Shown here: positions 5,219 through 24,651 of the stretch, in pieces | Numbering within the stretch: position 1 is the first letter of the stretch | How the letters are laid out: the number at the start of each line of letters is the position of its first letter | Assembly (NCBI GenBank): GCA_022711455.1 | Contig: JAKLEY010000004.1 | Span: 1-33,443, forward strand | Length of the DNA: 33,443 nucleotides | Source of the DNA: Candidatus Cloacimonadota bacterium | GTDB taxonomy: Bacteria; Cloacimonadota; Cloacimonadia; Cloacimonadales; Cloacimonadaceae | Direction: 5' to 3' | Program-made: the position numbers and the translations under genes | The notes under the pieces: model-generated | The model's input: the letters and a program-made list of their open reading frames with translations, nothing else | The model's database searches: none | What the model was told of the DNA's origin: nothing

Positions 5219-6615
5219 TTCTTTAAGGCTTGGTCGAAAGTCTTTCCCAGAAATCTGGTTTTGATCAGGGCCCACAATCCGGCAGCGATGGTGGATGGGT
5301 TCATTGCCTTGCTGCGGAAGCTTTTATAGAGCATGGGGATCAAGCGCCAGCCCTTGCTGAGATAGACTCTCAGGTAGGCTTTGGGGAGGTAGGCTTCCAG
5401 GGCTTTGGGGCTCATGCCAAGGGGTTGATACACGCAGTGCGCGGCATCGTAAAGTTCCCATTTGTAATGTAAAAGGCGTCCTTCAGACTTGATCTTGTTA
5501 TAGAGTTCCGTGCCCGGAAAGGGAGTCAGAATTGAGATCAGGACGTATCCCAGATGCAGGGACTGGAAAAAGCGGATATTCTGCTCGATATACCCGGGAG
5601 CGTCAAATTCATCTCCTGAACCCAGGATCATATACCAGTTGTGTGATATCTTATTGCGGTCCAGAATCTTGATAGCGGTCTTAATATCCTGCAGATTGAT
5701 CTTTTTGTGCATCCGTTCCAGGACTTCCGGGATGCCGCTTTCGATTCCGATGGAACACAGACTGCATCCGGCTTTGGACATCAAAGCCAGCAGTTCCGGA
5801 TGACGCACGATGCTATCGACCCGGCTCATGCAGTTCCACCTGAACTTGAGGCCCTCAGCGATGATCCGGTTGCAAAACTCAGTCACCCATGCAACATCCA
5901 CAGTCAGATTGTCATCATGAAACCAAAACTGCGTGAAGCCCCAGTCCAGGTAATTCCTGATATCTGCCAAAACAGCTTCGACCTTGCGTTGACGGTAGCT
6001 GCCTCCATAGAATGAGGAGATGGAACAGAAGGAGCAATGGAAGGGGCAGCCCCGGCTGGAAACGATCTTGGGAGAAAAGGTGAAGCCGGGAGCCAGCAAG
6101 TCTCTCGTGATCAGCGGCAGACCGTCCAGATCTTCCAGCAGCGCTATCTGCTCATCATTGTGATAGGTGCCGTCCCGGTAATAGACGATCCCCGGGATAG
6201 CGGGGAAGCTGTTGCCATGCGAAAGGCTGTCCAGAAGCCGCACAAAGACTTCCTCTCCCTCTCCGCGGCAGACATAGTCCACCCCTGTCTCTTCAATGAC
6301 TTCCTTATACATGAAGGTGGCATGGTGTCCGCCAATGATAGAGGGCAGTTCGGGATAAAGTTTTTTGCAGCTTTTCAGGAGCTCACGGGCAATGGGATAG
6401 GTGGCTGAAACGCATGATACTCCAAGGATATCCGGTTTGTAGGAATGAATGTATTTCCCGATGTCATGCTCATCCGCGATCACAACGGTGGTTCTGTGTC
6501 CGGCAGCTTTGGCAGCGGCAGCAACATAGAGCACACCCTGGAGCACCTGATTTCCCTTGCGCAGGCTTTCCAGTCCGCCGGTTTTGGCTGCAGGGGAGAC
6601 GAGCAGGATCTTCAG
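5212..6615 (-). CDS. B12-binding-domain radical SAM protein
   Basis: A 467-aa protein with the layout of the cobalamin-binding radical SAM family. It has an N-terminal Rossmann-like part (KILLVSPA, then DILGVSCVSATY and IIGGHHATF), then the 4Fe-4S/SAM motif CPFHCSFC with Cys at residues 190, 194 and 197 (codons at 6048-6046, 6036-6034 and 6027-6025). A barrel part follows with FWFHDDN and SIGIESG. The family performs methylations, ring formations and other radical chemistry on lipids, cofactors or natural products; the substrate cannot be read here. The first ATG/GTG/TTG start is GTG at 6546, but that would remove KILLVSPA and the first beta strand. I therefore prefer CTG at 6615, with AAGGGA upstream and a 4-nt CTGA overlap with rex. 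Last gene of the minus-strand operon. Confidence 0.85.
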   Translation of the reverse strand: MKILLVSPAAKTGGLESLRKGNQVLQGVLYVAAAAKAAGHRTTVVIADEHDIGKYIHSYKPDILGVSCVSATYPIARELLKSCKKLYPELPSIIGGHHATFMYKEVIEETGVDYVCRGEGEEVFVRLLDSLSHGNSFPAIPGIVYYRDGTYHNDEQIALLEDLDGLPLITRDLLAPGFTFSPKIVSSRGCPFHCSFCSISSFYGGSYRQRKVEAVLADIRNYLDWGFTQFWFHDDNLTVDVAWVTEFCNRIIAEGLKFRWNCMSRVDSIVRHPELLALMSKAGCSLCSIGIESGIPEVLERMHKKINLQDIKTAIKILDRNKISHNWYMILGSGDEFDAPGYIEQNIRFFQSLHLGYVLISILTPFPGTELYNKIKSEGRLLHYKWELYDAAHCVYQPLGMSPKALEAYLPKAYLRVYLSKGWRLIPMLYKSFRSKAMNPSTIAAGLWALIKTRFLGKTFDQALKKN

Positions 6616-7241
6616 TGGGCGTCCCTTTCCGCTAACCTCCGGGAGAGAACGGCCAGAGAGGCAAACATATCCACATATTCCACAATGATCTCGGAAGGCA
6701 CGTGGATCTTTTGAGGAGTGAAATTCCAGATCGCCTTGATTCCGCTGTGGACCATCAGATCAGCCACCAATTGGGCAGATTCCGGAGGGACGGTGATGAT
6801 TCCGATCTGGATCCCCTTGCTGGCTGCTTCGCCTGTGATCTCAAGCACTGAATGCACAGGGACGCCGTGGATCGTGGTTCCGATCTTGGCGGGATCGTTA
6901 TCAAAAGCGCCAACGATGGTCAAACCACGCTGGGAGAATTCCTGATAACCCAGCAGCGCGCTGCCCAGGTGACCCACCCCAACCAGATAGCTGGAAGAGG
7001 TGTCGCTCCAATTAAGCAGGTCTTCAATGGCACGGGAGAGCTTCCTGATGTTGTATCCGCTCTGAGGCACATTGTTTATCCCGGTGTAGGACAGGTCTTT
7101 GCGAACCAGGGTCTGGTGCAGATCGGCAAACACGGAGATCTTGGTGGCAGAGGCTTCTCTCAGCCCCGCGCGGGTGAATTGCTTGAGGACTTCCAGATAC
7201 TGCGGAAGCCGCTTGAGAGTCGAAGTGGGGATCCTATCCAA
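6612..7241 (-). CDS. rex: redox-sensing transcriptional repressor Rex
   Basis: Rex represses fermentation and respiration genes and leaves DNA when NADH binds. The 209-aa length is typical. Residues 1-80 form the winged-helix domain (IPTSTLKRLPQYLEVL and SGYNIRKL, both classic Rex segments). The Rossmann domain follows with nucleotide motif GVGHLGSAL, then FDNDPAKIG, IITVPPESAQLVAD and IWNFTP. The start is TTG at 7241, with AGGAG six bases upstream that straddles the end of the 941-aa protein gene. Its stop overlaps the putative CTG start of the radical SAM gene. Its place inside the DUF6754-type operon is the clearest hint that the module responds to redox state. I found no convincing TTGTGAA-type Rex operator upstream of the operon. 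Confidence 0.95.
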   Translation of the reverse strand: MDRIPTSTLKRLPQYLEVLKQFTRAGLREASATKISVFADLHQTLVRKDLSYTGINNVPQSGYNIRKLSRAIEDLLNWSDTSSSYLVGVGHLGSALLGYQEFSQRGLTIVGAFDNDPAKIGTTIHGVPVHSVLEITGEAASKGIQIGIITVPPESAQLVADLMVHSGIKAIWNFTPQKIHVPSEIIVEYVDMFASLAVLSRRLAERDAH

Positions 7242-7251
7242 ACTATGTCTC

Positions 7252-10077
7252 CTATTCGATCGGGAAGGCGTTTATGAATCCGTTCATGTGGAAGGTGGAA
7301 AGAAGAGCACCAATGATCACCACGATCACGATCACGAGCTTGAAATAGTCTTGTGCCTTTAGCATCGAGACCAGCTCATGGTTTTTGGAAAGATAGGCAG
7401 AAGCGGCATAAAACTCTTCGCCGATCAGAGTGTAATCGCAGGTGGTGATGAAGAACGGCACCTGTGTAACCGCATCGGTAGCAGCGATTTGGATTGCACC
7501 GGCCTGGTTTCCGGTCTCGGTGAGGAGCAGCGCTTCGGCATTGAAATAACCCATGTAAAACACGGTTGCAACCCTCTCCCGGATCGTGATTCCGTTCACA
7601 CCGGCGCAGAAGGGGAACTGGTTATCCGAAATGAAGAAGATATCGCTCTGGTCATAGGCGTCCGGGCGTCCGGCTTCGCTATACGCGCTCTGCACCATCT
7701 CCTGTGCCACCGGCATCACAAAATAGTCGCAATGCGGATTGATCAGACGGATATCGAATTCCGCGGTTTTCTTGGCGATCTGGTTCAGGATCATCATCGA
7801 GGCAATGGTGCAGACCTCACCCAGTGAACCCCAACCGGGAACGAACATCACGGGGCGTCCCATTTCGGTGGCACGTCCCACAGCGTTGTCGATCTCTTCC
7901 AGACCCGCGATGGGGCGGATGTAAACCTCTCTTTTACGTGTGATGATGATGGCATAAACTACCAAAACCATCAGCAGGATCGAAGCCAGGAGGGTGATCT
8001 TTTTACTGGAGTCAAACCACTCAGCTCTGGGATGCATGTATAGCTTGCCGTCTTTATTCTTATACGGTTCAGAGAGGGTCAGCATGGCTTTGCCATCGGT
8101 GACCAGCAGGCGGTAGGAATAGTTTTGTGAATTCTTCAGATACTCACGGACCATTATCTTACGCCATTCCTTCTCACTTTTGGCAGCCTGTGCCGCTTTG
8201 AAGGCAGGATGACTTTCGATAAAGGCAAGATCAGCTTTGGCCTGAGCCAGAGCCTGAGTGGTCTCTTCAGGAGTCTGGGCTCCCAGTTCAGCTGCCTTTT
8301 TTTCCAGAGCTGAGACCTCGTCCCGCAAATCTTTCAGCTGCTTGTTCCAGGCTTCACGGTAGATGGGAACGTTTAAGCCGGAGGAACCGTTGTCATCCGC
8401 GGCAACTGAGATCACGGGATTCATGGTGAAGCGGTCCGTGGCCTTGTCGTAGCCCTGAATGGTCTGGAAGCTTGTTTCCGGCAGCGGGATGGAATGGTCA
8501 TAGGTGCGCACGATGGCAGAGCTGCGAAGACCCTGCATATACATCGGGCTGGTGGCGGATTTGCTGTAGATATCAAAGAAAAGTTCGTTCAGGACCTGGC
8601 CGTTGTGCTCGATCTGATCACCGGCAAAGCGCTTGTTCTTTTTGTCATAGACGATGTGTTGACGGGTGAGATCAGTGCTGAAATCAGGCTCACCCTGCAC
8701 CCAGAGCGAGATCTCGATCTTGATGTCCTTGGTGTCCACCGCGTCTTTGGGCAGATTACAATTGATGATATGATCCACAAAGTGTTCGGTAACGGTGCCC
8801 AGTTCCTTGCCGGAACCGTCTTTGAGGTGAAAACGGATCTTCTTGATCTTGTAGGCTTCGTTTTTGGCAATATCATAATTCAGCCGCAACTTGGTCTTTT
8901 TGGCGTTCAGATAGAAGGCCTGGCTGACGTAGGGCACCGGTTTGCCCAAGGCGATCACGAGGTTGTCGCCCTTATCGTTGTCCTTGTCTTCGACCTTGTA
9001 TTTGGGCAGGCGTGGCAGTTCGGCAGAGGTGGCAAGACGGAAGCTGCGTCCCAGGGCAGCAGCCTGATATTGGCTGGAGTCCATGTAGGAGAGGACGGTC
9101 GTATAGTTTTCAAGGTCAGCCGGGAGGGTGATGCCCTCTGCAGCGCAATCGACTGTGTGGTAATAGACGGGGGCGACATAGTATTGCGGAAGCTGGAAGA
9201 GGGGCAGGGCGGAGCTTTGCCAGCTTGCGGTGTAGACCGAATCCGGCAGCTGGGCATTGGCTGCTTCTTCCTGTTTGAAGCTTTCCACCTGGCTTTTGGG
9301 CAAAAGCCAACCCATCCACATGGCAATATCTGAACCACTGGGAGGGGCTGTCCATTCAAAATTGAATTGATTCTTGTCTTTGATATATGAGCTGTAAAAC
9401 ACAGCTGTGGGCTCCGGACGATTGTCCACCGGGATCACTTTTTGGATATCTGCCGCGGGGAGGAAATTGCCTTTTTCATTCACGGCGATCACGCTGTAAT
9501 AATATGGAGTTCCGGCTTTGGGCAGGGCATAGACGGTGTCAAATTGATAGAGTTTATAACCGGCAAGGGTCTGATCAGCCAGTTTGATCATTTTGCTGCG
9601 GTTGAAGAGCTGGTTGTTCTTGATCACACCCAGCATGTTGTAGCTGCTCATCAGGCTTCCGACCACGTTTCCGGCCTGAGGCACGCGTTGATAGAAGGGG
9701 CTGTTTGCGGCTTGCTTCTTTTCTTTCTTAAGCTTGGTGGGGGCGGATTCAAATTCGATCAGAGGCTGGTCACCCCGGTCATAGTAATAGAGGTTTGGGC
9801 TCATCACCCCCATTTTGGGATCGACCTCTATGCTGGTGAGGAAAAAGAGGCTGTCCGGGTTGGCACCACGGTAGATGTTATATTGGATCACCCGATGAGT
9901 CTTGTCCAGCGGAGTCCATTTCAGGATCACTCCCGCGCCGTCATCATTGGGCATGTCGTAGGCACTGAAACCGGCAATTTTGCCTGCCGCGGAGGCGTTT
10001 CCGGTATCCGATGAGACCGATACCAGGATCATCACGCTGAGCAGTAACGCTCCCATGATCATATATGCTTTCTTCAT
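7252..10077 (-). CDS. large membrane protein, FN3-like repeats plus DUF6754-like C-terminal domain
   Basis: A 941-aa paralogue of the protein at 12666-15590. Residues 1-31 look like a signal peptide or anchor. FN3-like modules start with the pattern D-x-PND-x-G...L-x-W near residue 43 and a related DKDNDKGDNLVIAL near 375. A charged helical/coiled-coil stretch covers about 565-650. A transmembrane helix (ASILLMVLVVYAIIIT) lies near 692-712. It is followed by a conserved ~195-aa domain starting IRPIAGLEEIDNAVGRATEM and ending TTCDYTLIGEE..YAASAYL, then a last transmembrane helix near 912-932. I recall this domain as DUF6754, whose function is unknown. Topology suggests a long extracytoplasmic part and a cytoplasmic C-domain between the last two helices. 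AAGGGG precedes the ATG. Confidence 0.85.
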   Translation of the reverse strand: MKKAYMIMGALLLSVMILVSVSSDTGNASAAGKIAGFSAYDMPNDDGAGVILKWTPLDKTHRVIQYNIYRGANPDSLFFLTSIEVDPKMGVMSPNLYYYDRGDQPLIEFESAPTKLKKEKKQAANSPFYQRVPQAGNVVGSLMSSYNMLGVIKNNQLFNRSKMIKLADQTLAGYKLYQFDTVYALPKAGTPYYYSVIAVNEKGNFLPAADIQKVIPVDNRPEPTAVFYSSYIKDKNQFNFEWTAPPSGSDIAMWMGWLLPKSQVESFKQEEAANAQLPDSVYTASWQSSALPLFQLPQYYVAPVYYHTVDCAAEGITLPADLENYTTVLSYMDSSQYQAAALGRSFRLATSAELPRLPKYKVEDKDNDKGDNLVIALGKPVPYVSQAFYLNAKKTKLRLNYDIAKNEAYKIKKIRFHLKDGSGKELGTVTEHFVDHIINCNLPKDAVDTKDIKIEISLWVQGEPDFSTDLTRQHIVYDKKNKRFAGDQIEHNGQVLNELFFDIYSKSATSPMYMQGLRSSAIVRTYDHSIPLPETSFQTIQGYDKATDRFTMNPVISVAADDNGSSGLNVPIYREAWNKQLKDLRDEVSALEKKAAELGAQTPEETTQALAQAKADLAFIESHPAFKAAQAAKSEKEWRKIMVREYLKNSQNYSYRLLVTDGKAMLTLSEPYKNKDGKLYMHPRAEWFDSSKKITLLASILLMVLVVYAIIITRKREVYIRPIAGLEEIDNAVGRATEMGRPVMFVPGWGSLGEVCTIASMMILNQIAKKTAEFDIRLINPHCDYFVMPVAQEMVQSAYSEAGRPDAYDQSDIFFISDNQFPFCAGVNGITIRERVATVFYMGYFNAEALLLTETGNQAGAIQIAATDAVTQVPFFITTCDYTLIGEEFYAASAYLSKNHELVSMLKAQDYFKLVIVIVVIIGALLSTFHMNGFINAFPIE

Positions 10078-10153
10078 TTATATTCCCCTTCAAAAACGGG
10101 TATCTTCTACATTCCCTTTGATAAAAACTGCCCGCTTAGTTTTTTATAAAGCT

Positions 10154-10196
10154 GATTCCCGCGGAGCAAAGCCAAGGGTTCTGATCCGCGGAAATC
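10154..10196 (-). repeat. intercistronic hairpin in the minus-strand operon
   Basis: GATTCCCGCGGA (10154-10165) and TCCGCGGAAATC (10185-10196) pair at 11 of 12 positions around a 19-nt loop. It lies in the only sizeable gap (133 bp) inside the operon, between the 200-aa membrane protein gene and the 941-aa gene. It could set mRNA processing or stability so that the two large paralogues are made at different levels; that is inference. No T-tract follows in the direction of transcription. Confidence 0.5.
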
Positions 10197-10210
10197 GCTT
10201 CTGACGTTTG

Positions 10211-10813
10211 TTACTTTAGCAATCCCAGCACGTCGTTGACCAGGAACTGGATACGTCCGATCAACAGCGAGATACGAGCCATCACGGTGAGCCCGAAGGA
10301 GGCTCCGAATCCGATCATCATATACCACTTTCCAAAATCGACAAACTTGCCATAAACACCGGTGTGCGCTTTTGAGAAGAAGAAATAAAGCAGCACGGCG
10401 ATAGTGCCGATGAAGATCAGGAAAAGGTTGAAGGTTTCGATCGGAACCATGGCCTGACGCATCTGCACCAGGATCGTGGCATGAATACCCATGGGCACGG
10501 AGGCACCCACAGCCATCATCGAGAAGGCTATCGGATAGCGGGAAAGCCAGCCCAGCTTACGGCTGAAACGCAGCAGATAGAGCATACCCAGGATAGCCGG
10601 GAAGATCAGGACCCACTGGTGTTTGAGGATGATGGGTTGATAAACGTAAGGGATAAAGACCCGGGTGTAAGTAAGCACCAGGCCATAACCCAAAGAAATT
10701 CCCACCAGCAGCTGTTCAGCCATCTGATAGAAAGGATTATCCTTGTAAAGGAAGGAGAATATGCACAGGGTGAAAAAAGCACCCACCAGATTTGACATCA
10801 TTTCAAAAGACAT
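10211..10813 (-). CDS. polytopic membrane protein of the DUF6754-type module
   Basis: A 200-aa protein of unknown family with about six hydrophobic helices (near residues 8-24, 31-52, 67-83, 93-113, 126-146 and 165-185). Helix 2 contains the small-residue run LLVGISLGYGL, and the last helix has GFGASFGLTV, both suited to tight helix packing. No signal peptide or enzymatic motif is visible. GGAGG five bases before the ATG gives a clear start, and the gap to the gene upstream is 10 nt, so translation is probably coupled. Likely an inner-membrane subunit of a complex with its neighbours; no function can be assigned. Confidence 0.8.
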   Translation of the reverse strand: MSFEMMSNLVGAFFTLCIFSFLYKDNPFYQMAEQLLVGISLGYGLVLTYTRVFIPYVYQPIILKHQWVLIFPAILGMLYLLRFSRKLGWLSRYPIAFSMMAVGASVPMGIHATILVQMRQAMVPIETFNLFLIFIGTIAVLLYFFFSKAHTGVYGKFVDFGKWYMMIGFGASFGLTVMARISLLIGRIQFLVNDVLGLLK

Positions 10814-10823
10814 TATTTCCTCC

Positions 10824-12020
10824 CTATTTCACTTTGGCCTGTTTGGCTTTTTGGATGAAGTAACCGACGTTCCCGAGCACGATGAACAGAATGATCATGA
10901 TATGCGCCACGCTCTGGGCGTTCATTCCGATTCTTGCCACCTTGAACTTATAAGGGATATCCCGGCTCATTTTCTTGAGATCAAGGTAGGTGAGTTCACC
11001 CATGGCTTTGCGCTGTTCGGGACTGATGGCGTTGATATCGACCACGATCTTGTCCGCTTCCGGTTTGCCCAGCCCCTGCAGGAGACTCATTTGCTCCGGA
11101 TATTTGGAAACGAAGGCACTAAAATCCTCTTTGGTGAATTCCGCCTTGGTCTGAGTGGTGATATTGATCAGCTTTTTGGTGGATTCATCCTGCAGGATCT
11201 CACGTCCGAAGGGGCGTCCGGCCAATAGTTTCTTGCCGGTCTCGTCGGTCTTGATCCGGTAGTCGATAGCAGGATCACGATAGCCGGCAAAGACATCCAC
11301 CAGCTTCTCGTATTCCGCCGCGCCCTTGAGCCCTGCCAGCATACCGATCATCTGACCAGACTGCAGGTAGGGATACTGGTCGGCAGCCATCACAGCAGTA
11401 ACGCCAACAGCCACATTCAAGCCGAATTTGGGACGCGCGTAGGTGATCCAGGTCATACCCGCTGTGCTTCCGGAGAATTCGACCACGAGGTTAAGCTCGT
11501 TGTAGTTGGTGATGCCTTTCATGATCTCGAGGTTCTCGAGCTTGCGTCCTTCCGCGTCCGTATTCATCGTGTTGGCAATGTTATCACCCATACCGATGAC
11601 CATGGCGAAGGCCTGAGGTTTGTAACCGAAGTTACAATAGTCCACGCCGCTCTTGATATCGGGGAATTCTTCCTTCACGTTGTTGATCGCGTAGTCGATG
11701 ATCGGGGCACCGGAGGGGCTCCAGGTGAGAGTGAAGACCTTGACGTTACGTTCAAAGCAATGTCTTAAGATCGCCACTTCCATGGGATAGAGCTCCGGCA
11801 TGGTGGAAGCATCGTGATAGAAGCTGAGCAGCACTGCCCGGTCTTCACGGCCCGCAAAGGAATCTATCATCTGATAAAGATTCTCGGTGGATGGCGTGGT
11901 CACGTTATCCGAATTGTAGGGAACCATCAACGGAATGATGATCGCAAGGGCAACGACGATATAGATGTAGCGCCGGTCCAGCCTTTGGATACGTTCAAAG
12001 AAACTCATTTTTTCTGCCAT
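10824..12020 (-). CDS. bitopic membrane protein with large extracytoplasmic domain, unknown function
   Basis: About 398 aa. One transmembrane helix lies near residues 18-35 (YIYIVVALAIIIPLMVP) and one near the C-terminus (HIMIILFIVLGNVGYFI). The ~330 residues between have alternating alpha/beta segments (RAVLLSFYHD, VKVFTLTWSPSG, AFAMVIGMGDNI) suggesting a Rossmann-like fold, and a striking run YLQSGQMIGMLAGLKGAAEY. I recognise no named family. A TTG at 12026 is possible, but GGAGGTGA sits only 3 nt before it and a proper 6 nt before the ATG at 12020, so I chose the ATG. That Shine-Dalgarno sequence encodes the Gly-Gly-Gly end of the gene upstream, so the genes are tightly coupled. Confidence 0.82.
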   Translation of the reverse strand: MAEKMSFFERIQRLDRRYIYIVVALAIIIPLMVPYNSDNVTTPSTENLYQMIDSFAGREDRAVLLSFYHDASTMPELYPMEVAILRHCFERNVKVFTLTWSPSGAPIIDYAINNVKEEFPDIKSGVDYCNFGYKPQAFAMVIGMGDNIANTMNTDAEGRKLENLEIMKGITNYNELNLVVEFSGSTAGMTWITYARPKFGLNVAVGVTAVMAADQYPYLQSGQMIGMLAGLKGAAEYEKLVDVFAGYRDPAIDYRIKTDETGKKLLAGRPFGREILQDESTKKLINITTQTKAEFTKEDFSAFVSKYPEQMSLLQGLGKPEADKIVVDINAISPEQRKAMGELTYLDLKKMSRDIPYKFKVARIGMNAQSVAHIMIILFIVLGNVGYFIQKAKQAKVK

Positions 12021-12022
12021 GA

Positions 12023-12652
12023 TCAATCACCTCCACCCAGATAAGAGCGTTCAATGCCAAGCAGGATCTTCAGCGAGGTTGCCACGGAACCCAGACCGAC
12101 ACCCAGCATGATCCCGCGTTTGGAAGCGAGGTTGGGAACGTCCAGGATCCATTGGGAGATGGTGGGCAGGTGTTTGGATATCTTCATTCCCAGCGGCACC
12201 TGAGCCAGCATCACCACGATGGCTGCAACTAAGAGCACGGTTGCTTCCGGGCTTCTGGCACGGAAGGCTTTATAGGCAGCAGAGGCCATATAGAAAGCCA
12301 GCAGTGAGAACATAGTGGCGCTCATCGGCATCTGCATGTTTTCAAACATCCACATGAATACGCCGCCTTTTTGGGTTCCACCAATAAAACCGGCAAGGGC
12401 CGTGATGATAAAACCGGCAAAGAAGAAATAGCTGTATTGCCATTTGGGCGCTCTGCGTTTGATCTTGTTGGAATGCATCATAGAAAGGCTCATCACACCC
12501 AGCAGCATGGCAAAGGGCGCGGAGGCATAGGACCAGGGCAGGTAGAACTTGTTATAAAAGACTTCCTGCAACAGATAGTGCGGACTGAATGCCCAAAGCA
12601 CCCAGATGATTCCGCCGACGATCACTATAAGGAGTGGTATTGTTTTCTTCAT
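12023..12652 (-). CDS. polytopic membrane protein of the DUF6754-type module
   Basis: A 209-aa protein of unknown family with about six hydrophobic segments (near residues 5-22, 41-60, 73-92, 110-130, 137-157 and 180-198). A basic cluster NKIKRRAPK after the second segment suggests a cytoplasmic loop. It ends in LGGGD, where the codons double as the ribosome-binding site of the next gene. It starts 13 nt after the 974-aa protein gene ends. Two different six-helix proteins (this and 10211-10813) flank the bitopic protein gene, which looks like a multi-subunit membrane complex. No catalytic motif seen. Confidence 0.8.
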   Translation of the reverse strand: MKKTIPLLIVIVGGIIWVLWAFSPHYLLQEVFYNKFYLPWSYASAPFAMLLGVMSLSMMHSNKIKRRAPKWQYSYFFFAGFIITALAGFIGGTQKGGVFMWMFENMQMPMSATMFSLLAFYMASAAYKAFRARSPEATVLLVAAIVVMLAQVPLGMKISKHLPTISQWILDVPNLASKRGIMLGVGLGSVATSLKILLGIERSYLGGGD

Positions 12653-12665
12653 TAAAAATACCTCT

Positions 12666-15590
12666 TTATTTTAACGGCAATAGCAGGGTTAATCCAGTAA
12701 TCTGGAAGGTTGAAAGGATAGCCCCCACGATCACTACGCTGAGGATCACAAACTTGAAGTAATCCTGAGCTTTGAGCGTTCCGAGGAGCATGGGTTCGCG
12801 ATTCAGGTAGGCGGAAGCGGCATAGAGCTCTTCTCCGATCAGAGTGTAATCGCAAGTGGTGATAAAGAAGGGGATCTGGGTGATGGCATCGGTTCCGGCT
12901 ATCTGCACGGCTCCGACTGCGTTTCCGGTCTCTGTCATCAGCAAGGCTTCCGCGGCAAAGAATCCCATAAAGAAGTTCGTCGCCATCCGTTCACGGATCA
13001 TGATCCCGTTCACACCTGCCACATAAGCAAACTGTACGTTGGTGAGGTAAAACACGGAATTCTTGTCATAAGTATCCGGACGCCCCACGGAATAGTGCGC
13101 TTCCCGCACGATCTCCTGAGCGATGGGCATGATAATATAGTCATAGCAGGGCACGATCAGCTTGGTGTCATACTCTGCTGCCTTCTTTGCAACCAGCCCC
13201 AGGATTCCCATGGAGGCCAGAGTCGCAACGTCGGACAGACCACCGTTACCCATGCAATACAGCATCGGACGCCCCATTTCAGTGGCGCGGCCAATGGCGT
13301 TGTCGATCTCGGAAAGTCCTGCGATCGGACGAATATAAAGGTCTTTTCCGCGTTTGGCAAGGTTCACGAAAATGATCACCGAAAGACCAAAGAGCAGGGT
13401 GGCAAAGAGAGTCACGAACTTGTTGCGGTCAAACCAGTTGGACACCGGTTTGGTCAGGACGGGCTTGCCGTCTTTATCCAGCAGCATATCGCTTTCCACA
13501 AACATACCCTTACCGTCAGTCTTAACCACCTGATAGCCCTGATAACGGCTGTAATCCTCACGCAATCCGGCAATATAGCGCATCCGTCCATTCTTGGATT
13601 TGATCGCGTTTGCTTTCTTGAGCTCAGGATTGGAGGTGAGAGAGGCCAGCTTGCCTTTCAGGGATTTGAGTTGATCGGTCATCTTGGCAAGCTGGGGAGG
13701 GGCGGGATTGAGGGCGGACATCGTTGCCAGATTGGCTTCCAATTCCTTGATCTGGGTGCCCAGCTTGGTGCTTTGTTCTTTCACCAATTGCAGAGCGGGA
13801 CCGGGGAAGAGCCTGGTTTGAACCGAAGTTTCGTTTTTGGCGTCATAAGTGACGTCGATTCCGGCATCCACCAGACTGTAGTTTCCGGTGTTCTCTCCGG
13901 GCTTGATCTTGCGGGCAAAGCGAGTGGGCTTCTCCGCGTTGTACATTATGGAGATCAGAGAGTCTCCGGACGCGTAGCTGAAGCCGTAAACAGGCTTCTG
14001 CAGCACGGTCGGATAGGCCACGGTGACATCCAGATTGTTATCAAAAGAGGTGTTTTTCTTCACCAGGATCATGGTATCGGATGCCATGCCTCTGCGATAG
14101 ACCACATTGGACAGGGTGGAAACCTCGTATCCGTTGCGATACAGTTCCTTACCCGGCATCAGGGTCATCATCTTCTTGTCCCAGAGCAGGTCTTGTTCGA
14201 GCACATAATCGTTCTTGGGACTATCGGTATCCATGGTGATCCTGACCCGGAAACCCTTGGCATAGTCATATCCGGCAGGAACTTTGAGCATGATCGAATT
14301 GTCCTGATAATACTCTTTGACCTTGGCAAAGGCATTGCTTTCGCCGGCCTTGAAGAATTCAAAATAGATGTTTTTGACTTTCTGAGTCTCGGCCTTATTG
14401 AGCTGATAGTTGATCTTCAGCTTGGTGTTGTCTTTATTCTGTGAGCTGGTCTTGGTCACAAAAACAATAGGCTTGTCCCAGAGGACGGTGAGGCGGTCAC
14501 CCTTGTCGTTGGGCTTGTCTTCCACGATAAAATTGGGTTTGGGCGGCAATTGCGCGCTTTGCAGCAAGCGGGGGGTGGACAGAGCAGAATATGAGCTCAT
14601 CCCCTGGCTGTCGATCAGTTGCAGACAGAACCGCGCGTTCTTCATCTGCGCGGCTTGAGCGGCATCGACAGGGAGGCTGGTATAGTTCTTGAGCAAAAGA
14701 TAACCCTGTGAGACTCCACCCGCTGCGATCGGAGTGGCAATATTTTCCACTGCTGTGGGGAGCTTGCGGACCCTCAGCCAGGTGCTGTCTGAAACACCGC
14801 TCACCAGCAGGATCTGATATTGCTGCAGGTCATCTTTGTAAAGCGGATATTCCCATTCAAAACGCAGCTCGTTCTTATCTTCCAAAAGCACGCTGTAAAG
14901 AGCGTTGGCAGGATCCGGAGCATCCGGAACGGGGCTGCCCTCGGCAACTTTAGCAAAGTTTTGGAACTGGTTGCGTTCATTCACTGCCAGGACAGTATAA
15001 TAGTATTTCTGGCCGGGTTTGAGGAAGGCCAGGATAGTCTGGCGGTTCATCTTCATTCCGGCATAGGCGGTGCTGTCCGCGGAATCAGCCGAGTAGACCT
15101 CTTTCGAGCTGTAATAGAGATGGTTTTTCTCGATCACGGAAAGCAGATCATAGCTCTTTCCCAGCTCAGCCAGCAGCTTCACGTCCCGGGGGATCTTGCG
15201 AAAGAGAGGGCTGTTTGAAGGCTGCTGCTTTTCCCGTTTCAGTTTGCCGGGAGAATTGACATCCAGGAATTCACTTCCGGAATTGTCATAGTAATACATC
15301 TTATCCGAGGCAACCCCACTCTTGGGATTCACCTGGATCGACTCCAGGAAAAACATCTGATCAGGCGAAACGCCCCGATACACACGATATTCAATGATTC
15401 TTTTGTCCCGTTCCAAAGGCTTCCAACTCAGCATCAAGCCGGAACCATCATCGGATGGCACATCTTCAACCTTAAAATCTTGAACCACATAATCATCCCG
15501 CTGCGCTTGCTTCTGCGCTATGACCACGCTGACCAGCGCGATCAAAACCAACAGCAAAACCGGGATCAGGCGACGTTTGTCCAACCTCAT
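12666..15590 (-). CDS. large membrane protein, FN3-like repeats plus DUF6754-like C-terminal domain
   Basis: First gene of the operon; 974 aa and paralogous over its whole length to the 941-aa protein. An N-terminal hydrophobic anchor (VLLLVLIALVSVVIA) comes first, then FN3-like modules marked DVPSDDGSGLMLSWKPL (near residue 43) and DKPNDKGDRLTVLW (near 360). A helical, probably coiled-coil region spans about 600-665, with a transmembrane helix near 722-745. The conserved DUF6754-like domain begins IRPIAGLSEIDNAIGRATEM near 752 and ends TTCDYTLIGEELYAASAYL, with a final transmembrane helix after it. AGGAG seven bases before the ATG supports the start. Upstream on the minus strand a TTGACA lies at 15668-15663, but I see no -10 box at normal spacing, so the promoter is unproven. 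Confidence 0.87.
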   Translation of the reverse strand: MRLDKRRLIPVLLLVLIALVSVVIAQKQAQRDDYVVQDFKVEDVPSDDGSGLMLSWKPLERDKRIIEYRVYRGVSPDQMFFLESIQVNPKSGVASDKMYYYDNSGSEFLDVNSPGKLKREKQQPSNSPLFRKIPRDVKLLAELGKSYDLLSVIEKNHLYYSSKEVYSADSADSTAYAGMKMNRQTILAFLKPGQKYYYTVLAVNERNQFQNFAKVAEGSPVPDAPDPANALYSVLLEDKNELRFEWEYPLYKDDLQQYQILLVSGVSDSTWLRVRKLPTAVENIATPIAAGGVSQGYLLLKNYTSLPVDAAQAAQMKNARFCLQLIDSQGMSSYSALSTPRLLQSAQLPPKPNFIVEDKPNDKGDRLTVLWDKPIVFVTKTSSQNKDNTKLKINYQLNKAETQKVKNIYFEFFKAGESNAFAKVKEYYQDNSIMLKVPAGYDYAKGFRVRITMDTDSPKNDYVLEQDLLWDKKMMTLMPGKELYRNGYEVSTLSNVVYRRGMASDTMILVKKNTSFDNNLDVTVAYPTVLQKPVYGFSYASGDSLISIMYNAEKPTRFARKIKPGENTGNYSLVDAGIDVTYDAKNETSVQTRLFPGPALQLVKEQSTKLGTQIKELEANLATMSALNPAPPQLAKMTDQLKSLKGKLASLTSNPELKKANAIKSKNGRMRYIAGLREDYSRYQGYQVVKTDGKGMFVESDMLLDKDGKPVLTKPVSNWFDRNKFVTLFATLLFGLSVIIFVNLAKRGKDLYIRPIAGLSEIDNAIGRATEMGRPMLYCMGNGGLSDVATLASMGILGLVAKKAAEYDTKLIVPCYDYIIMPIAQEIVREAHYSVGRPDTYDKNSVFYLTNVQFAYVAGVNGIMIRERMATNFFMGFFAAEALLMTETGNAVGAVQIAGTDAITQIPFFITTCDYTLIGEELYAASAYLNREPMLLGTLKAQDYFKFVILSVVIVGAILSTFQITGLTLLLPLK

Positions 15591-16036: not shown

Positions 16037-16066
16037 TTGCCAGAAATAGCATAGTAAATTACTATG
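16037..16066 (+). promoter_or_regulatory. promoter and palindromic operator of the FeS operon
   Basis: A -35-like TTGCCA (16037-16042) is followed after 17 nt by a -10-like TACTAT (16060-16065). The perfect 17-bp palindrome CATAGTAAATTACTATG (16050-16066) covers the -10 box. A repressor bound there would block RNA polymerase, and the next gene encodes an Rrf2-family repressor, so autoregulation is likely (inferred). A transcript starting near 16072 would have a 25-nt leader before the ATG at 16097. Confidence 0.65.
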
Positions 16067-16096
16067 TATTCAGAACGAGAATGGAGACCACTCAAA

Positions 16097-16534
16097 ATGG
16101 CAATAAACACAAGAACCGAATATGCCCTCAGGGCATTGATAGAACTGGCAGGAAGCAATGAAGACGCTCTTTCCGCCAGGGAGATATGCGAGCGTCAGGA
16201 TCTGCCCAAGAAATACGTGGAGCATCTTTTGGCGGGCTTGAAAGCTGCTGAATTGATCTCCAGCAGTGCCGGCAGCAGGGGTGGTTATGTGCTTTCCCGT
16301 TCCCCGGAGCAGATCGATCTGGCTCAGATCATGGCTGCGGTGGAAGATAAAAGCCAGGATCTGGCTTGTTACTCCTGCAAGGAAAGCTATTGTCTGGGAA
16401 CATCCTGCAGCCTCAGCGAGATCTTTGAGGAGCTCAGCGGCAGGCTTTCCGGGGTGCTGGCATCCTATAAACTCAGCGATTTCTATCACAGATTTAAATC
16501 CCAAAATCAGGCTGTTGCCAAGGAGAAAAAATGA
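16097..16534 (+). CDS. Rrf2-family transcriptional regulator (IscR-like)
   Basis: A 145-aa winged-helix regulator. The start MAINTRTEYALRALIELA is the usual beginning of Rrf2 proteins, followed by a recognition region near residues 28-60 and the wing GSRGGYVLSR. Four cysteines at residues 91, 94, 99 and 104 (ACYSCKESYCLGTSC) lie where IscR holds its FeS cluster, so it probably senses cluster supply. An upstream ATG at 16064 is in frame but lies inside the -10 box and palindrome, so I reject it as the start. Its stop overlaps the desulfurase start (ATGA), placing the regulator in the operon it presumably controls. Confidence 0.9.
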   Translation: MAINTRTEYALRALIELAGSNEDALSAREICERQDLPKKYVEHLLAGLKAAELISSSAGSRGGYVLSRSPEQIDLAQIMAAVEDKSQDLACYSCKESYCLGTSCSLSEIFEELSGRLSGVLASYKLSDFYHRFKSQNQAVAKEKK

Positions 16535-17718
16535 AACCCGGTCAAATATACATGGATAATTGCATCACCAGCCGTCCTGCCCCGGAGGTTTTGGAAGCCA
16601 TGCGTCCCTACTGGGAAGAGAAATTCTGGTATCCGGGCAGTTTTGTTTCCACCGGTGAGGCCATCAACACCGAATTGAACAGCTTTAAGGCAGTTATCGC
16701 AAATTCTCTGGGAGCAGCTCCGGACGAGATCCATTTCACCTCCGGAGGCACTCTTGCCAATAATATCGCGATCAAAGGACTGGCTCAGGCAAACGCTAAG
16801 AACGGCAAACACATCATTTGCTCCGTGGTCGATTATCCGGATATCCTCACCAATGCCGCTTATCTGGAGAATCTGGGTTTTGAGCTCAGTTATCTCAGCG
16901 CGGATTCTGAGGGCTTCATAAACCTCTCGGAATTAAAGGCATCGCTCCGCAAGGACACGATCATGGTGATGACCACCATCGTCAATCACGTGATCGGAAC
17001 CATTCAGCCCATTGCTGAGATCAGACAGATCCTCGATTCTGCCGATCATAATATCTATCTGCATGCCGATGCCGGGCAAGCCTATGGCAAAATGCCTCTG
17101 AACGTTGATGAACTGGGCGTGGACACCATGTCCGTCTCTGCCCACAAGATCCATGGTCCGCAAGGGATCGGAGCGCTCTACGTGCGCAAGGGGACCAAGC
17201 TGGGACAGAGCATTCACGGGGTCAAGCGGGTGGACAATCTGCAGACCGGAGGTTTGAACATCGCGCTGATAGCAGGCTTTGCCAAGGCCGTGGAGCTTAG
17301 TTTTGCCAATATCAAACAGACGGAAGCCGCCCTGCGTGAGCTCTCCGATTATTTGATAGAGAAGATGGAAGCCACGATCCCGCAGATCGAACTGAACGGT
17401 CCCAGAGGAGCAAAGCGTGCTCCGCACAACGTCAATATCTCCATCGATTACATTGAGGGAGAAGCAATTACCATGATGCTGGATATGTACGGGATCACGG
17501 TCGCGACCGGCTCCGCCTGTGCCTCTCAGGGTTTGCAGGCAAATTATGTGCTGATGGCGATCGGCAAGAATCACGTGCAAAGCCATGGCTCCATGAAGTT
17601 TACGCTTTCCAGATATAACACTAAAGCAGAGATCGACGAGCTCGTTTCGCGCCTGGCAGAGATATCTGCGGAGCTTCGCAAACGCAGTCCACTTTATAAC
17701 GCCTTACAGGAGAAATAA
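16531..17718 (+). CDS. cysteine desulfurase, NifS/IscS type, divergent
   Basis: PLP enzyme that takes sulfur from cysteine for FeS cluster assembly. At 395 aa it has the family length. Present: DAGQAYGK with Asp180 and Gln183, the PLP lysine Lys206 in SAHKIHGPQG, and the catalytic loop GSACASQ with Cys330. Unusual: the EH pair that stacks on PLP in IscS is Asp101-Tyr102 (VVDYPDIL), the NNE segment reads NHV (152-154), GGTEANN reads GGTLANN, and the start DNAATT reads DNCITS. AAGGAG precedes the ATG. It is placed between an FeS-sensing regulator and IscU, so FeS assembly is the expected role, though a change in PLP chemistry cannot be excluded. Confidence 0.88.
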   Translation: MKPGQIYMDNCITSRPAPEVLEAMRPYWEEKFWYPGSFVSTGEAINTELNSFKAVIANSLGAAPDEIHFTSGGTLANNIAIKGLAQANAKNGKHIICSVVDYPDILTNAAYLENLGFELSYLSADSEGFINLSELKASLRKDTIMVMTTIVNHVIGTIQPIAEIRQILDSADHNIYLHADAGQAYGKMPLNVDELGVDTMSVSAHKIHGPQGIGALYVRKGTKLGQSIHGVKRVDNLQTGGLNIALIAGFAKAVELSFANIKQTEAALRELSDYLIEKMEATIPQIELNGPRGAKRAPHNVNISIDYIEGEAITMMLDMYGITVATGSACASQGLQANYVLMAIGKNHVQSHGSMKFTLSRYNTKAEIDELVSRLAEISAELRKRSPLYNALQEK

Positions 17719-18339
17719 ATGCAATACTCAGAAAAGGTCCTCGACCACTTCATGCACCCTCGCAATATCGGCAAGATGGAAAACCCTGATGCCAGTGCCA
17801 CCGAGGGCAGTCCCGCTTGCGGAGATCAGGTCACGGTCTACCTCAAGGTCGACGATAAAGACCTCACCATCAAAGACATCAGCTTCCTGTCCTATGGCTG
17901 TGCCTCCAATATAGCCACAGCTTCGATGATCACCGATATCGCCAAGGGCAAGACCCTCGAAGAAGCCAAAAAGATCACCTGGCGCGAAGCCATGGAAGCC
18001 CTGGACGGACTTCCTCCCGTGAAGGTGCATTGCTCTGTGCTGGCAGCAGATACGCTGCAAACTGCCATCTCCAATTATGAGATCGCGCATGGGCTCAAAG
18101 AGGTTCCGAACTTCAGCAAGGAGACCATCCTCGATGAGCTTAAGAAGATCATCTATCCTCAAGTCGGCGAAGACATTGTCTCCCTGAAGATGGTAAAATA
18201 CGTGGGCTTTACGGATGGCGAAGTGCTGATCGATCTCAATATCCCCTCCTTTGACCAATGGCGCGGCAATATTGCCGATGAGATCAGGGAGCATCTGGAA
18301 AAGTATCCGGAAGTGAAGGATATTCAGATCAATATGTAA
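17719..18339 (+). CDS. iscU: FeS scaffold IscU fused to a MIP18/DUF59 domain
   Basis: A 206-aa protein. Residues 1-125 are IscU/NifU-N, with the three cluster ligands Cys34 (SPACGD), Cys61 (YGCASN) and Cys105 (VKVHCS), plus Asp36, which permits cluster release. Residues about 130-206 (ILDELKKIIYPQVGEDIVSL, then GEVLIDLNIPS) match the MIP18/DUF59 fold found in SufT and FeS carrier proteins. This differs from the NifU C-terminal thioredoxin-like domain because there is no CxxC. Scaffold and cluster-transfer activities may therefore sit in one chain. AGGAG lies inside the preceding gene, and the ATG directly follows the desulfurase stop. Confidence 0.9.
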   Translation: MQYSEKVLDHFMHPRNIGKMENPDASATEGSPACGDQVTVYLKVDDKDLTIKDISFLSYGCASNIATASMITDIAKGKTLEEAKKITWREAMEALDGLPPVKVHCSVLAADTLQTAISNYEIAHGLKEVPNFSKETILDELKKIIYPQVGEDIVSLKMVKYVGFTDGEVLIDLNIPSFDQWRGNIADEIREHLEKYPEVKDIQINM

Positions 18340-20084: not shown

Positions 20085-20108
20085 CAGATGCCATTTTTAG
20101 GAGATATT

Positions 20109-22958
20109 ATGAAAAAATTAATTCTTGCTCTCAGCCTTGCGCTGATGCTTGGCCTTGCCTTTGCTCAGCCATATGCCGCGGATCTCTTCTTCTCGGAATA
20201 CGTCGAAGGAAGCTCAAACAACAAAGCCATCGAGATCTTCAACGGCACCGGGGTCGCGGTCGACCTCTCCCAGTATACCGTCAAACTCGCTTCCAACGGG
20301 GGCGCCTGGTCCACCACCAATATCATCACCCCCACCGGAACAGTTGCCCATAATGACGTGTTTGTGATCGCCAATTCCGCTGCCAATGCGGCAATTCTGG
20401 CACAATCGGACGTCACTTCCACCGTTACCTATTTCAATGGTGATGACGCGCTGGGGCTCTTTCACGGAGAGACTTTGATCGATATCATCGGAGTTTATCA
20501 GAATGATCCCGGAACTGCCTGGCCGGTTGCCGGAGTTGCGGATGCTACCCTGAATCATACTCTGATCCGCAAACCCACTGTTATCCAGGGTTCTCTGGAT
20601 TGGGCAGTCTCCGCGGGAACCAATGCTGACGATTCCCAATGGATAGTTCAGGCTATCGACTACATCACAGATCTGGGCGTTCACACCTTCACTCCCGGAG
20701 GCGGAAACAACACTGCCACCCCCACTTTCAACCCTGCCGGAGGCACTTATTCCTCTCCTCAGAGCATCACCATTTCCTGCAGCACACCTGCTGCAGTGAT
20801 CTATTACACCACCGATGGCAGCACTCCCACTCTCACTTCTCCGGTCTACTCGACCCCTCTGACCATCAGTGCGACCACCACTCTCAAAGCCATAGCCAAG
20901 GCTCCTGCTTTGGCTGCCAGCTATGTTGCCACTGCGGTCTATACCTTCCCCGTGACTGTCAGCACCCTCTCTGCCTTGCGTAGCTCTCAGGCTGATAACA
21001 CTACTCTGTATTACCTCACGGCAGAGGTCTATCTGAGCTTCAAGCAGACCTTCCGCAACCAGAAGTATTTCCAGGACGACCAGGCAGGGATCCTCGTTGA
21101 TGACGTGGCCGGTGTCATCACCACCCCTCTGAATGTCGGAGACGGCGTTGAAGGCATGCTGGGCAAGCTCAGCGAGTTCGGCGGCATGCTGCAATTCATC
21201 CCCACTGCCAACATCACCAGCGTGACCTCTACGGAAAACCCGATCATCCCGGTAGTTATCTCCTACACCAATCTGATCGATAATTTTGACACCTATGAAT
21301 CCCGCGTGGTCAAGGTCATGAACGTCAGTTTCAACGCACCCACCGGCAATTTTGCCAATGGGATCAGCTATCCCAGCTATGACCCCAATGATGACTTCCC
21401 CATCCGCACCACCTTCTACGATGTGGATTATATCAACACTCCCGTCCCCACCACCCCCATGCACATTTCCGGAATCCCCAATTCCAGAACTGACGGCAGC
21501 TATTTCACTCCCCGCAACCTGGCAGATTTTGAAGTGCCTGCCGGAGAAGTGGCAACTCCTGTTTTTGATCCCGCCGGTGGTTTGATCCTCACCCCCTCAG
21601 TGAGTGTGGCGATCTCCACCACCACCCCCGGAGCCACTATTCATTACACCCTGGACGGCAGCATTCCCAGCAATAACTCTTTGCAATACACAGTTCCGCT
21701 AAACGTTAGTTCAACTACCACCGTAAAAGCCATAGCCTATCTTGGAGCTCAAAGCTCCTCCGTGGCTTCAGCTACCTACACCTTCCCGGTCAGCGTTGCC
21801 AGCCTCGCCGATCTCCGCGCTCAAACAGTGGACAGCACCATCTACCGGGTCTCCGGTCAGGTCCAGGTGGTCTATCAGCAGAGCTATAGAAACCAGAAGT
21901 TTGTGCAGGACTATAATGCGCCCACATTGAGGGGTATCCTCATTGATGATTTTAACGGCATCATCACCAATACCTATCAGGAAGGAGACGTCTTCACCGG
22001 TCTGGTGGGAACCCTGGCAGAATACGGTGGCATGCTGGAACTCGTTCCGGTTGCCAATGCCGGAGCAAACCTGGGCAATCAGCCTCTGATCCCGCTCCAC
22101 GTCACTCTTGCCCAGCTGAATGAACCTGCTCTCTATGAGACCTACGAATCCCGTTTGATCGCGCTGGATTCCGTGCATTTCAATGATCCCGGAACCTTCG
22201 CTGCCGGAACGGTCTATCCCATCTCCAGCCCCAACGCAAGCTTCAATTTCCGTAGCAGTTTCTACGATGCGGATTATATCGGACAGCCTATCCCTGCCGG
22301 TGTAGGCTATTTCATGGGTATCGCCAATTCCCGCACGGACGGCAGTTTCTTCAGTTCCAGAAGACTCAGCGATTTCGTGCTCTACCAGCCACTTGCCAAT
22401 GTCAATGCAAGCTCTCCGGCCTCCGGAGTGGTCGATCTGAACTGGAGCTGGACTCCCGGAGCCCCTCCGGACTACGTTATAGGCTATGAAATCTACCGGG
22501 ACGGCGCAGAACTCGCCAACATAAATAATCCTCAACAACTTAGCTACACAGACAACACCAGTATCCCCGGCACTACCTACACCTATGGCATTGCAGTCCT
22601 CTGCTCGGATAGCTACGTGATGGACCCCGTAACTGTGCAGATCACAGCCACTTCCAATGATGACCCCTCCAGTCCCGTGCTGACCACAGCTCTGGGTTCA
22701 GTTTATCCCAATCCCTTCAGAGCTCAAACCGTGATCAATTATAGCATCAAGGACGGCAGCCCGGTAACCCTCGGGATCTACAACGTCAAAGGCCAGCTGG
22801 TGCGCGCTCTGGTAAACGCTCCCAAAGCCAGCGGTTTTTACAGTGTGACCTGGGATGGCAGAGCTGACAACGGTCTGCCGGTCAGCAGCGGAATCTATTT
22901 CTACAAGATGAATGCAGGGAAATACAGCTCCACCCGTAAAGTCATCATGATGAAATAG
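20109..22958 (+). CDS. secreted lamin-tail-domain protein with type IX sorting domain
   Basis: A 949-aa exported protein. Signal peptide: residues 1-19 (ending AFAQ). Residues about 20-195 are a lamin tail domain (LFFSEYVEGSSNNKAIEIFNG). Two tandem ~280-aa units follow (about 203-482 and 482-757). Each has a chitobiase C-terminal-like beta-sandwich (YYTTDGSTPT, HYTLDGSIPS) and an OB-fold-like module (RNQKYFQDD, RNQKFVQDY) ending NSRTDGS. Then come an FN3 module and the sorting domain VYPNPFRAQTVINYSI...GIYFYKMNAGKYS. It is likely delivered to the cell surface by the Por system; binding of polysaccharide or nucleic acid is possible but unproven. The start is ATG 20109 after AGGAG; an in-frame ATG at 20088 lacks a signal-peptide fit. 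Confidence 0.85.
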   Translation: MKKLILALSLALMLGLAFAQPYAADLFFSEYVEGSSNNKAIEIFNGTGVAVDLSQYTVKLASNGGAWSTTNIITPTGTVAHNDVFVIANSAANAAILAQSDVTSTVTYFNGDDALGLFHGETLIDIIGVYQNDPGTAWPVAGVADATLNHTLIRKPTVIQGSLDWAVSAGTNADDSQWIVQAIDYITDLGVHTFTPGGGNNTATPTFNPAGGTYSSPQSITISCSTPAAVIYYTTDGSTPTLTSPVYSTPLTISATTTLKAIAKAPALAASYVATAVYTFPVTVSTLSALRSSQADNTTLYYLTAEVYLSFKQTFRNQKYFQDDQAGILVDDVAGVITTPLNVGDGVEGMLGKLSEFGGMLQFIPTANITSVTSTENPIIPVVISYTNLIDNFDTYESRVVKVMNVSFNAPTGNFANGISYPSYDPNDDFPIRTTFYDVDYINTPVPTTPMHISGIPNSRTDGSYFTPRNLADFEVPAGEVATPVFDPAGGLILTPSVSVAISTTTPGATIHYTLDGSIPSNNSLQYTVPLNVSSTTTVKAIAYLGAQSSSVASATYTFPVSVASLADLRAQTVDSTIYRVSGQVQVVYQQSYRNQKFVQDYNAPTLRGILIDDFNGIITNTYQEGDVFTGLVGTLAEYGGMLELVPVANAGANLGNQPLIPLHVTLAQLNEPALYETYESRLIALDSVHFNDPGTFAAGTVYPISSPNASFNFRSSFYDADYIGQPIPAGVGYFMGIANSRTDGSFFSSRRLSDFVLYQPLANVNASSPASGVVDLNWSWTPGAPPDYVIGYEIYRDGAELANINNPQQLSYTDNTSIPGTTYTYGIAVLCSDSYVMDPVTVQITATSNDDPSSPVLTTALGSVYPNPFRAQTVINYSIKDGSPVTLGIYNVKGQLVRALVNAPKASGFYSVTWDGRADNGLPVSSGIYFYKMNAGKYSSTRKVIMMK

Positions 22959-22981
22959 GGACTCCGATTTTAAGAATAGAT

Positions 22982-23013
22982 AAGAGGGGATTGGGAAACC
23001 CCAACCCCCTCTT
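22982..23013 (+). terminator. strong hairpin after the lamin-tail gene
   Basis: AAGAGGGG-A-TTGGG (22982-22995) faces CCCCAACCCCCTCTT (22999-23013): a GC-rich stem of about 14 bp with one mismatch on a tiny AAA loop, 24 nt after the stop codon. No T-tract follows, so it may be a factor-dependent terminator or an mRNA 3'-end stabiliser. The rest of the 265-bp spacer to 23224 holds only a short palindrome AAGGCT/AGCCTT near 23156. Confidence 0.45.
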
Positions 23014-23223
23014 CTATTCGGATACAAACCGATCGTATTTATGGTCGAGATCTATGAGCAACATCTGCAAGTCTTTCGAGTGCTATTCCTTGGGGAGCTT
23101 ATTCCTATTGCTGAAAATGGAATCAAATTTGCTTTACTTATCTCACAGTAATTGGCAAGGCTTATAAGAGCCTTATCGGACCAGAGGTTTTGTGTATAAA
23201 GCAAGCTCCGGAGGTGGAGGATT

Positions 23224-24642: not shown

Positions 24643-24651
24643 GGCGGGAAA

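Follow-up and report, generated by a model that had tools for sequence, protein, structure and literature searches.

Organization of the locus

In a genome of the Cloacimonadota, two giant paralogous membrane proteins are encoded at the two ends of a run of five genes whose three inner members encode further membrane proteins, which raises the question of what system these genes encode and which of them belong to it. The window, that is, the whole stretch of 33,443 nucleotides analysed here, is contig C193 of a 2.24-Mb Cloacimonadota MAG that is 88% complete. An initial annotation had taken all five genes for one unit. ORF coordinates confirmed the five reading frames on the minus strand, where their 5' to 3' order is A-T1-B-T2-E, separated by 13 nt, a 4-nt overlap, 10 nt and 133 nt. 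Proteins with a DUF6754 domain, such as A and E, are called D below.

12666..15590, minus strand: A, 974 aa, first giant D protein (Pfam PF20539, 389 bits, and hydropathy); signal/anchor helix, ectodomain of about 690 aa (weak FN3 signal, helical segment), TM helix 726-744, DUF6754 domain predicted to be cytosolic, TM helix 947-965
12023..12652, minus strand: T1, 209 aa, polytopic membrane protein, no family above cut-off
10824..12026, minus strand: B, 400 aa, bitopic, Rossmann-like alpha/beta domain between two TM helices (structure model and hydropathy)
10211..10813, minus strand: T2, 200 aa, six-helix membrane protein with the conserved end TVMARISLLIGRxQFL, without family match
10078..10210, minus strand: T2-E intergenic stretch, stable hairpin without a terminator U-tract
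7252..10077, minus strand: E, 941 aa, second giant D protein, apparently a Cloacimonadota duplicate of A
6612..7241, minus strand: Rex-like redox repressor gene, 10 nt after E

The spacing agrees with the early description of short or overlapping gaps with a single, hairpin-bearing exception: the 133-nt gap between T2 and E folds at -41.4 kcal/mol (z = -3.6), which none of 200 shuffles matched, and it lacks a U-tract. The Rex-like gene keeps its position after E in three genera of family f1 only and is probably a local operon partner, not a core part. Divergent from A lie genes for an Rrf2-type regulator and for NifS-like and NifU-like proteins (window 16064-18339), and together with the Rex-like gene they suggest that the region is under redox or iron-sulphur control. 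Further along, positions 20088-29163 encode three large secreted Por_Secre_tail proteins with LTD/CHB, heparinase-like and beta-helix modules. In four genomes (L025, L029, L033 and L039) the contig stops about 150-250 nt past the E gene, as if a repeat came next. The window's own genome carries a third DUF6754 locus on contig C217, in which a 368-aa D gene is followed by homologues of T1, B and T2, with no giant stalks.

The conserved unit has four genes

To define the unit, the neighbourhoods of related loci were compared. All of the relatives' loci compared, 20 stalked and 20 compact, had the invariant order D-T1-B-T2. In the window's family and in some others T2 is followed by E, which L040-L042, all compact loci and other phyla lack. 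Therefore, the real unit is the quartet D(DUF6754)-T1-B-T2 and not five genes; the proposed five-gene unit stands as far as these four are concerned, whereas E is a lineage-specific duplicate absent from many four-gene loci. Profiles of D, T1, B and T2 were then run over 41 relatives, all Candidatus Cloacimonadota and one of them (G002) from the window's own genus. All four genes were present in 39 genomes and all four absent in the other two, G030 (91% complete) and G034 (93% complete), which belong to different families. Neighbourhood conservation had been set beforehand as the check on the five-gene proposal, and its outcome was positive, with the order kept in all loci first compared and presence all-or-none in the 41 genomes. 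DUF6754 itself was found in 74 of 76 genomes of Cloacimonadota, a sample made up of the window's own genome and 75 others with a completeness of 90% or more.

A DUF6754 alignment scan of genome contigs returned at least 576 relatives. The best 80 of these fall in Zixiibacteriota, WOR-3, Edwardsbacteria, Stahlbacteria, Coatesbacteria, Eisenbacteria, Latescibacterota, Fermentibacteraceae, Mcinerneyibacteriota, CSSED10-310, Armatimonadota and Poribacteria. Among the matches listed, 97 of 121 D genes, from many phyla, are followed by T1-B-T2 on the same strand; 12 are cut by a contig end, and the other 12 are mostly extra D copies such as E. Gaps of 60 nt or less separate D from T1 in 96 of the 97 quartets, T1 from B in 94 and B from T2 in 91. 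In the phylum of an Armatimonadota MAG, the quartet gene D occurs in 54 of 61 sampled genomes, and 18 of 20 fetched loci hold the full quartet. The quartet is thus spread over a dozen or so mostly uncultured bacterial groups. Next to a normal quartet, locus L114 has a second, strongly diverged one (L114:13070-17466; D 67 bits, B 51, T2 86), which may represent a distant branch of the families. Lone D genes of 795 and 399 aa, without T1-B-T2, occur in L148 (Zixibacteria) and L159 (CSSED10-310) as extra D copies like E.

Quartets are multiplied and inherited as blocks

Genomes carry one to six D copies, and in Zixibacteria and WOR-3 two or three quartets lie head to tail. Over 131 quartets, the pairwise distances of D, T1, B and T2 correlate at 0.82-0.89, and for 41 of the 49 tandem quartets all four genes have their nearest relative from outside the locus at the same position. 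These results show that quartets, including tandem ones, are inherited as blocks. On one Zixibacteria chromosome (L133), B and T2 share a single 571-aa frame, an apparent fusion that could be one sequencing error, the B-T2 gap being only a few nt in relatives.

In the D tree, the E proteins of f1 form one clade (support 0.999) adjoining the A proteins of f1 (0.53), and compact D proteins group with Zixibacteria quartets (0.97). From this tree, the two quartet classes seem to be older than the phylum split, and E seems to be a later Cloacimonadota duplicate of A. Identity to f1 counterparts is 43-52% for E and about 74-90% for T1 and T2. Two Armatimonadota loci (L173 and L174) have two short D genes in tandem ahead of only one T1-B-T2 set; as with A/E, D has been duplicated, here independently.

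D combines a conserved, probably cytosolic domain with a variable ectodomain

Both giant proteins match DUF6754 (PF20539) at 389.3 bits (A) and 368.6 bits (E) against a cut-off of 27. They share one order of parts, a signal/anchor helix, an ectodomain, a TM helix, DUF6754 and a second TM helix, with three helices by hydropathy, as had been described for them at first. The FN3-like modules also assigned to both were seen only as a sub-threshold match in A (18.6 bits, cut-off 25). From the positive-inside pattern, we infer that the DUF6754 domain is cytosolic.

An alignment of 148 diverse D sequences has 54 columns that are at least 95% identical, located in the juxtamembrane and cytosolic part; the near-invariant features are R55, GRATEMG, E182, ETG, Q197, QxPFF, CDxTLxGEE and K241/D244/K247. 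The cytosolic domain is the most conserved region and nearly constant in length, whereas the ectodomain is the variable region and ranges from almost nothing to about 700 aa. Such conservation would fit a shared ligand, an active site or a fixed interface. Armatimonadota D proteins are about 265 aa long (usual range 255-335 aa) with the ectodomain nearly absent. Therefore, the long stalk, which had been regarded as the defining trait of the system, is a Cloacimonadota-specific elaboration of D. The predicted structure of D was weak (pLDDT 62.5), and a Foldseek search of the PDB with this weak model gave nothing at E <= 1e-3, only F-ATPase gamma helices at low TM-scores.

T1, B and T2 match no described family

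Searches of T1, B and T2 against Pfam, NCBIfam and PADLOC gave nothing above cut-off. Two six-helix proteins had been expected from the locus; 19-residue hydropathy finds six helices in T2 and at least four, only four of them strong, in T1. It also supports the single bitopic protein, since B has two helices, with Lys/Arg-rich ends. The B model is confident (pLDDT 85.6, pTM 0.81), with an alpha/beta domain between the two helices that is predicted to be extracytoplasmic, given that the Arg/Lys-rich ends would lie inside. In family f1, B has an extra insert of about 75-100 aa ahead of the second TM helix. Against the PDB, Foldseek found no match to B at E <= 1e-3, only generic Rossmann matches at low TM-scores, and sequence profiles found no solved relative for D, T1 or T2 and one chance match for B.

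Columns conserved at 95% or more number 32 in T2, 20 in T1 and 19 in B, and conserved polar residues include H375 and N386 in the second helix of B and R180 and R187 in the last helix of T2. We also considered D-B and T1-T2 as homologous pairs, and this was rejected when hhalign found no homology (24-30 rows; 131 rows). On visual inspection, the parts of D and B that lie between two TM helices resemble each other in beta-alpha order, and the best hhalign P-value (0.04 with 131 rows) was in register and not significant, so that D-B homology is a suggestion only.

A cytosolic gene set is linked to the quartet in several phyla

A fuller operon, S1-S0-MutL-M375-D-T1-B-T2, occurs in several phyla, and the order is complete from S1 to T2 in L086, L091-L093, L104/L160, L138, L179 and L180. 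S0-MutL-M375, whole or in part, lies upstream of D on the same strand in 11 loci from CSSED10-310, Coatesbacteria, Armatimonadota, Effluviviaceae and others; M375 is present in these loci and MutL usually so, and in three Zixibacteria the genes are divergent from D. The two small genes before MutL encode S0, of about 110-130 aa, and S1, which is about 155 aa long and has a TM segment. For S0 and M375 there was no family match above cut-off, and S1 gave at most a weak bacterial PH match.

MutL looks soluble, with no clear membrane segment. It conserves DCGSTTTK and VDIGGATTD, ASKHA phosphate motifs that we take to be the two phosphate-binding motifs of the actin-like fold, and matches PF13941 above cut-off at 441 bits. 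Against the NCBIfam GlmL models it scores below the cut-offs (245.1 vs 475 for NF040745, 176.5 vs 204.05 for TIGR01319). Cloacimonadota commonly carry a second MutL paralogue, about 960 aa long, with an M375-like C-terminal fusion (L145:4276-7158, L147:7663-10494 and L040:3-2879, the last directly upstream of A).

In Armatimonadota, S0 stands directly 5' of D or of MutL-M375-D in all 20 loci, and MutL does not adjoin D in 17 of the 20. Among 30 chosen genomes, S0 was single-copy in every quartet-bearing genome tested and also in G030 and G034, and it was absent, as was T1, from all seven quartet-less Armatimonadota. In Cloacimonadota, S0-MutL-M375 form a separate locus that persists in the quartet-less G030 and G034; because it is kept there, the set must have another role or be a remnant. 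Strict co-occurrence of MutL with the quartet was accordingly rejected, MutL being present in 41 of 41 relatives, the two quartet-less ones included.

Comparison with known systems

Every D protein studied here, A and E included, matches DUF6754 far above cut-off. Pfam names the domain only, and the T1/B/T2 partners, the quartet, its tandem copies and the link to S0/MutL/M375 are, as far as our searches show, not described there; the literature searched contained no paper naming DUF6754 or PF20539. The initial view of an undescribed system is supported by these results together with the lack of family matches above cut-off for T1, B and T2 and of matches in the PDB. The linked MutL resembles GlmL/MutL (PF13941, TIGR01319), the accessory ATPase-like protein of glutamate mutase operons, in its PF13941 score and ASKHA phosphate motifs, but it falls under the NCBIfam GlmL cut-offs and no glutamate mutase was seen nearby. 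ECF-type transporters, in which one shared energising module serves many membrane modules, likewise combine a single-copy cytosolic set with several membrane modules per genome. In contrast, the S0/MutL/M375 set has no P-loop ABC ATPase, its MutL is an ASKHA protein and there is no homology; an ABC_tran search found no match in A, T1, B, T2, E, MutL, M375 or S0. The resemblance of T1 to TauE/SafE exporters is weak (20.4 bits, below the cut-off of 32.6), and a role in anti-phage defence was rejected, as there was no PADLOC match.

The neighbouring genes were considered as a clue to the substrate (PPDK, acyl-CoA synthetase, transketolase, MazG, TonB-dependent receptor, M23 peptidase, ABC-2) and rejected. 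Because each is confined to one or a few lineages, no substrate is claimed. In several f1 genomes, the compact quartet comes after genes for an ABC-2 exporter of 1,090 aa and a lipoprotein of 266 aa (L043:3713-7804 and relatives), and in an f9 genome this pair lies downstream of the quartet on the opposite strand (L060:11594-15736). On the features tested, the quartet fits no known kind of system, and its function is not thereby established.

Discussion

We consider it somewhat more probable than its negation that the copy in the window, stalked and of the A/E type, belongs to an inner-membrane complex that is widespread and undescribed and has D, T1, B and T2 as its core. The complex is probably coupled to a cytosolic ASKHA ATPase. 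What it does has to be weighed against several other explanations.

The quartet might be a membrane-bound enzyme of cofactor, lipid or sugar chemistry, in which the cytosolic domain of D is catalytic and MutL, M375 and S0 serve as an ATP-dependent chaperone that matures or reactivates the enzyme. The ASKHA reactivases of B12 enzymes offer a precedent for such a chaperone, and MutL is GlmL-related by its PF13941 score; many of the 54 conserved D columns hold residues of catalytic types (R, T, E, C, D, Q), and a D nearly without ectodomain suffices in Armatimonadota. However, D matches no known catalytic family or fold (although its model is weak), no B12 mutase was seen to recur beside the quartets, and two polytopic subunits with an external domain would be much for a simple enzyme. 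We regard this explanation as unlikely.

Alternatively, the quartet could be a sensor or an envelope scaffold, with the D ectodomains and B binding periplasmic or surface partners and the D cytosolic domain signalling to MutL/M375/S0. The variable ectodomain joined to a nearly fixed cytosolic domain would agree with this, as would the multiple specialised copies per genome. Yet there is no output domain of a known signalling type, recurrent response genes are lacking nearby, and T1 and T2 are retained just as strictly as D, which is unusual in a receptor; a sensor therefore appears decidedly unlikely. A secretion-related module, for example part of type IX-like secretion, came to mind because Por_Secre_tail proteins abound in the window and its relatives. 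The link to type IX secretion was rejected by the phyletic pattern, CTD proteins being abundant in both quartet-less genomes (at least 105 Por_Secre_tail matches in G030 and at least 69 in G034), and this explanation is very improbable. It is barely credible that the five genes are no more than unrelated membrane genes of housekeeping type kept together in a conserved cluster, for although operon compactness alone can produce short intergenic gaps, the order and all-or-none presence across many phyla, the block multiplication and the paralogue positions kept by all four genes speak against it.

We prefer transport or assembly across the inner membrane to an enzyme or a sensor mainly on two grounds: two polytopic subunits are retained as strictly as D, and several membrane copies share a single cytosolic set. 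This preference is modest, and no fold match of B or D in the PDB speaks for a transporter. In the transport or assembly model, T1 and T2 would form the membrane core and B would present its alpha/beta domain on the outside, while D would span the membrane with a conserved cytosolic docking or active domain and an optional ectodomain. The single-copy cytosolic S0/MutL/M375 set may couple ATP hydrolysis to the quartet; a common engine would then serve one to six specialised membrane quartets, whose most likely task would be to move or assemble something across the inner membrane. The A/E stalks of Cloacimonadota would extend into the periplasm to a partner, and A and E may form a heteromer, as first proposed. 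The main difficulty is that G030 and G034 keep S0-MutL-M375 without quartets.

More tentatively, these genes might represent a new class of ATP-coupled envelope machine present in Cloacimonadota, Zixibacteria, WOR-3, Armatimonadota and other little-cultured groups. In it, a single-copy engine of S0, the ASKHA ATPase MutL and M375 would drive one to six interchangeable quartets, and the D ectodomain and B would give each quartet its specialisation. The finding concerns a membrane complex without described function that is present, with up to six copies, in 74 of 76 Cloacimonadota genomes and in 54 of 61 sampled genomes from the phylum of an Armatimonadota MAG. The question can be put to the test with the compact quartet and the single-copy S0-MutL-M375 set, and the near-invariant residues of D offer mutation targets. 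If it is true that an ASKHA and not a P-loop ATPase drives the quartet, this would be a new way of powering envelope traffic.
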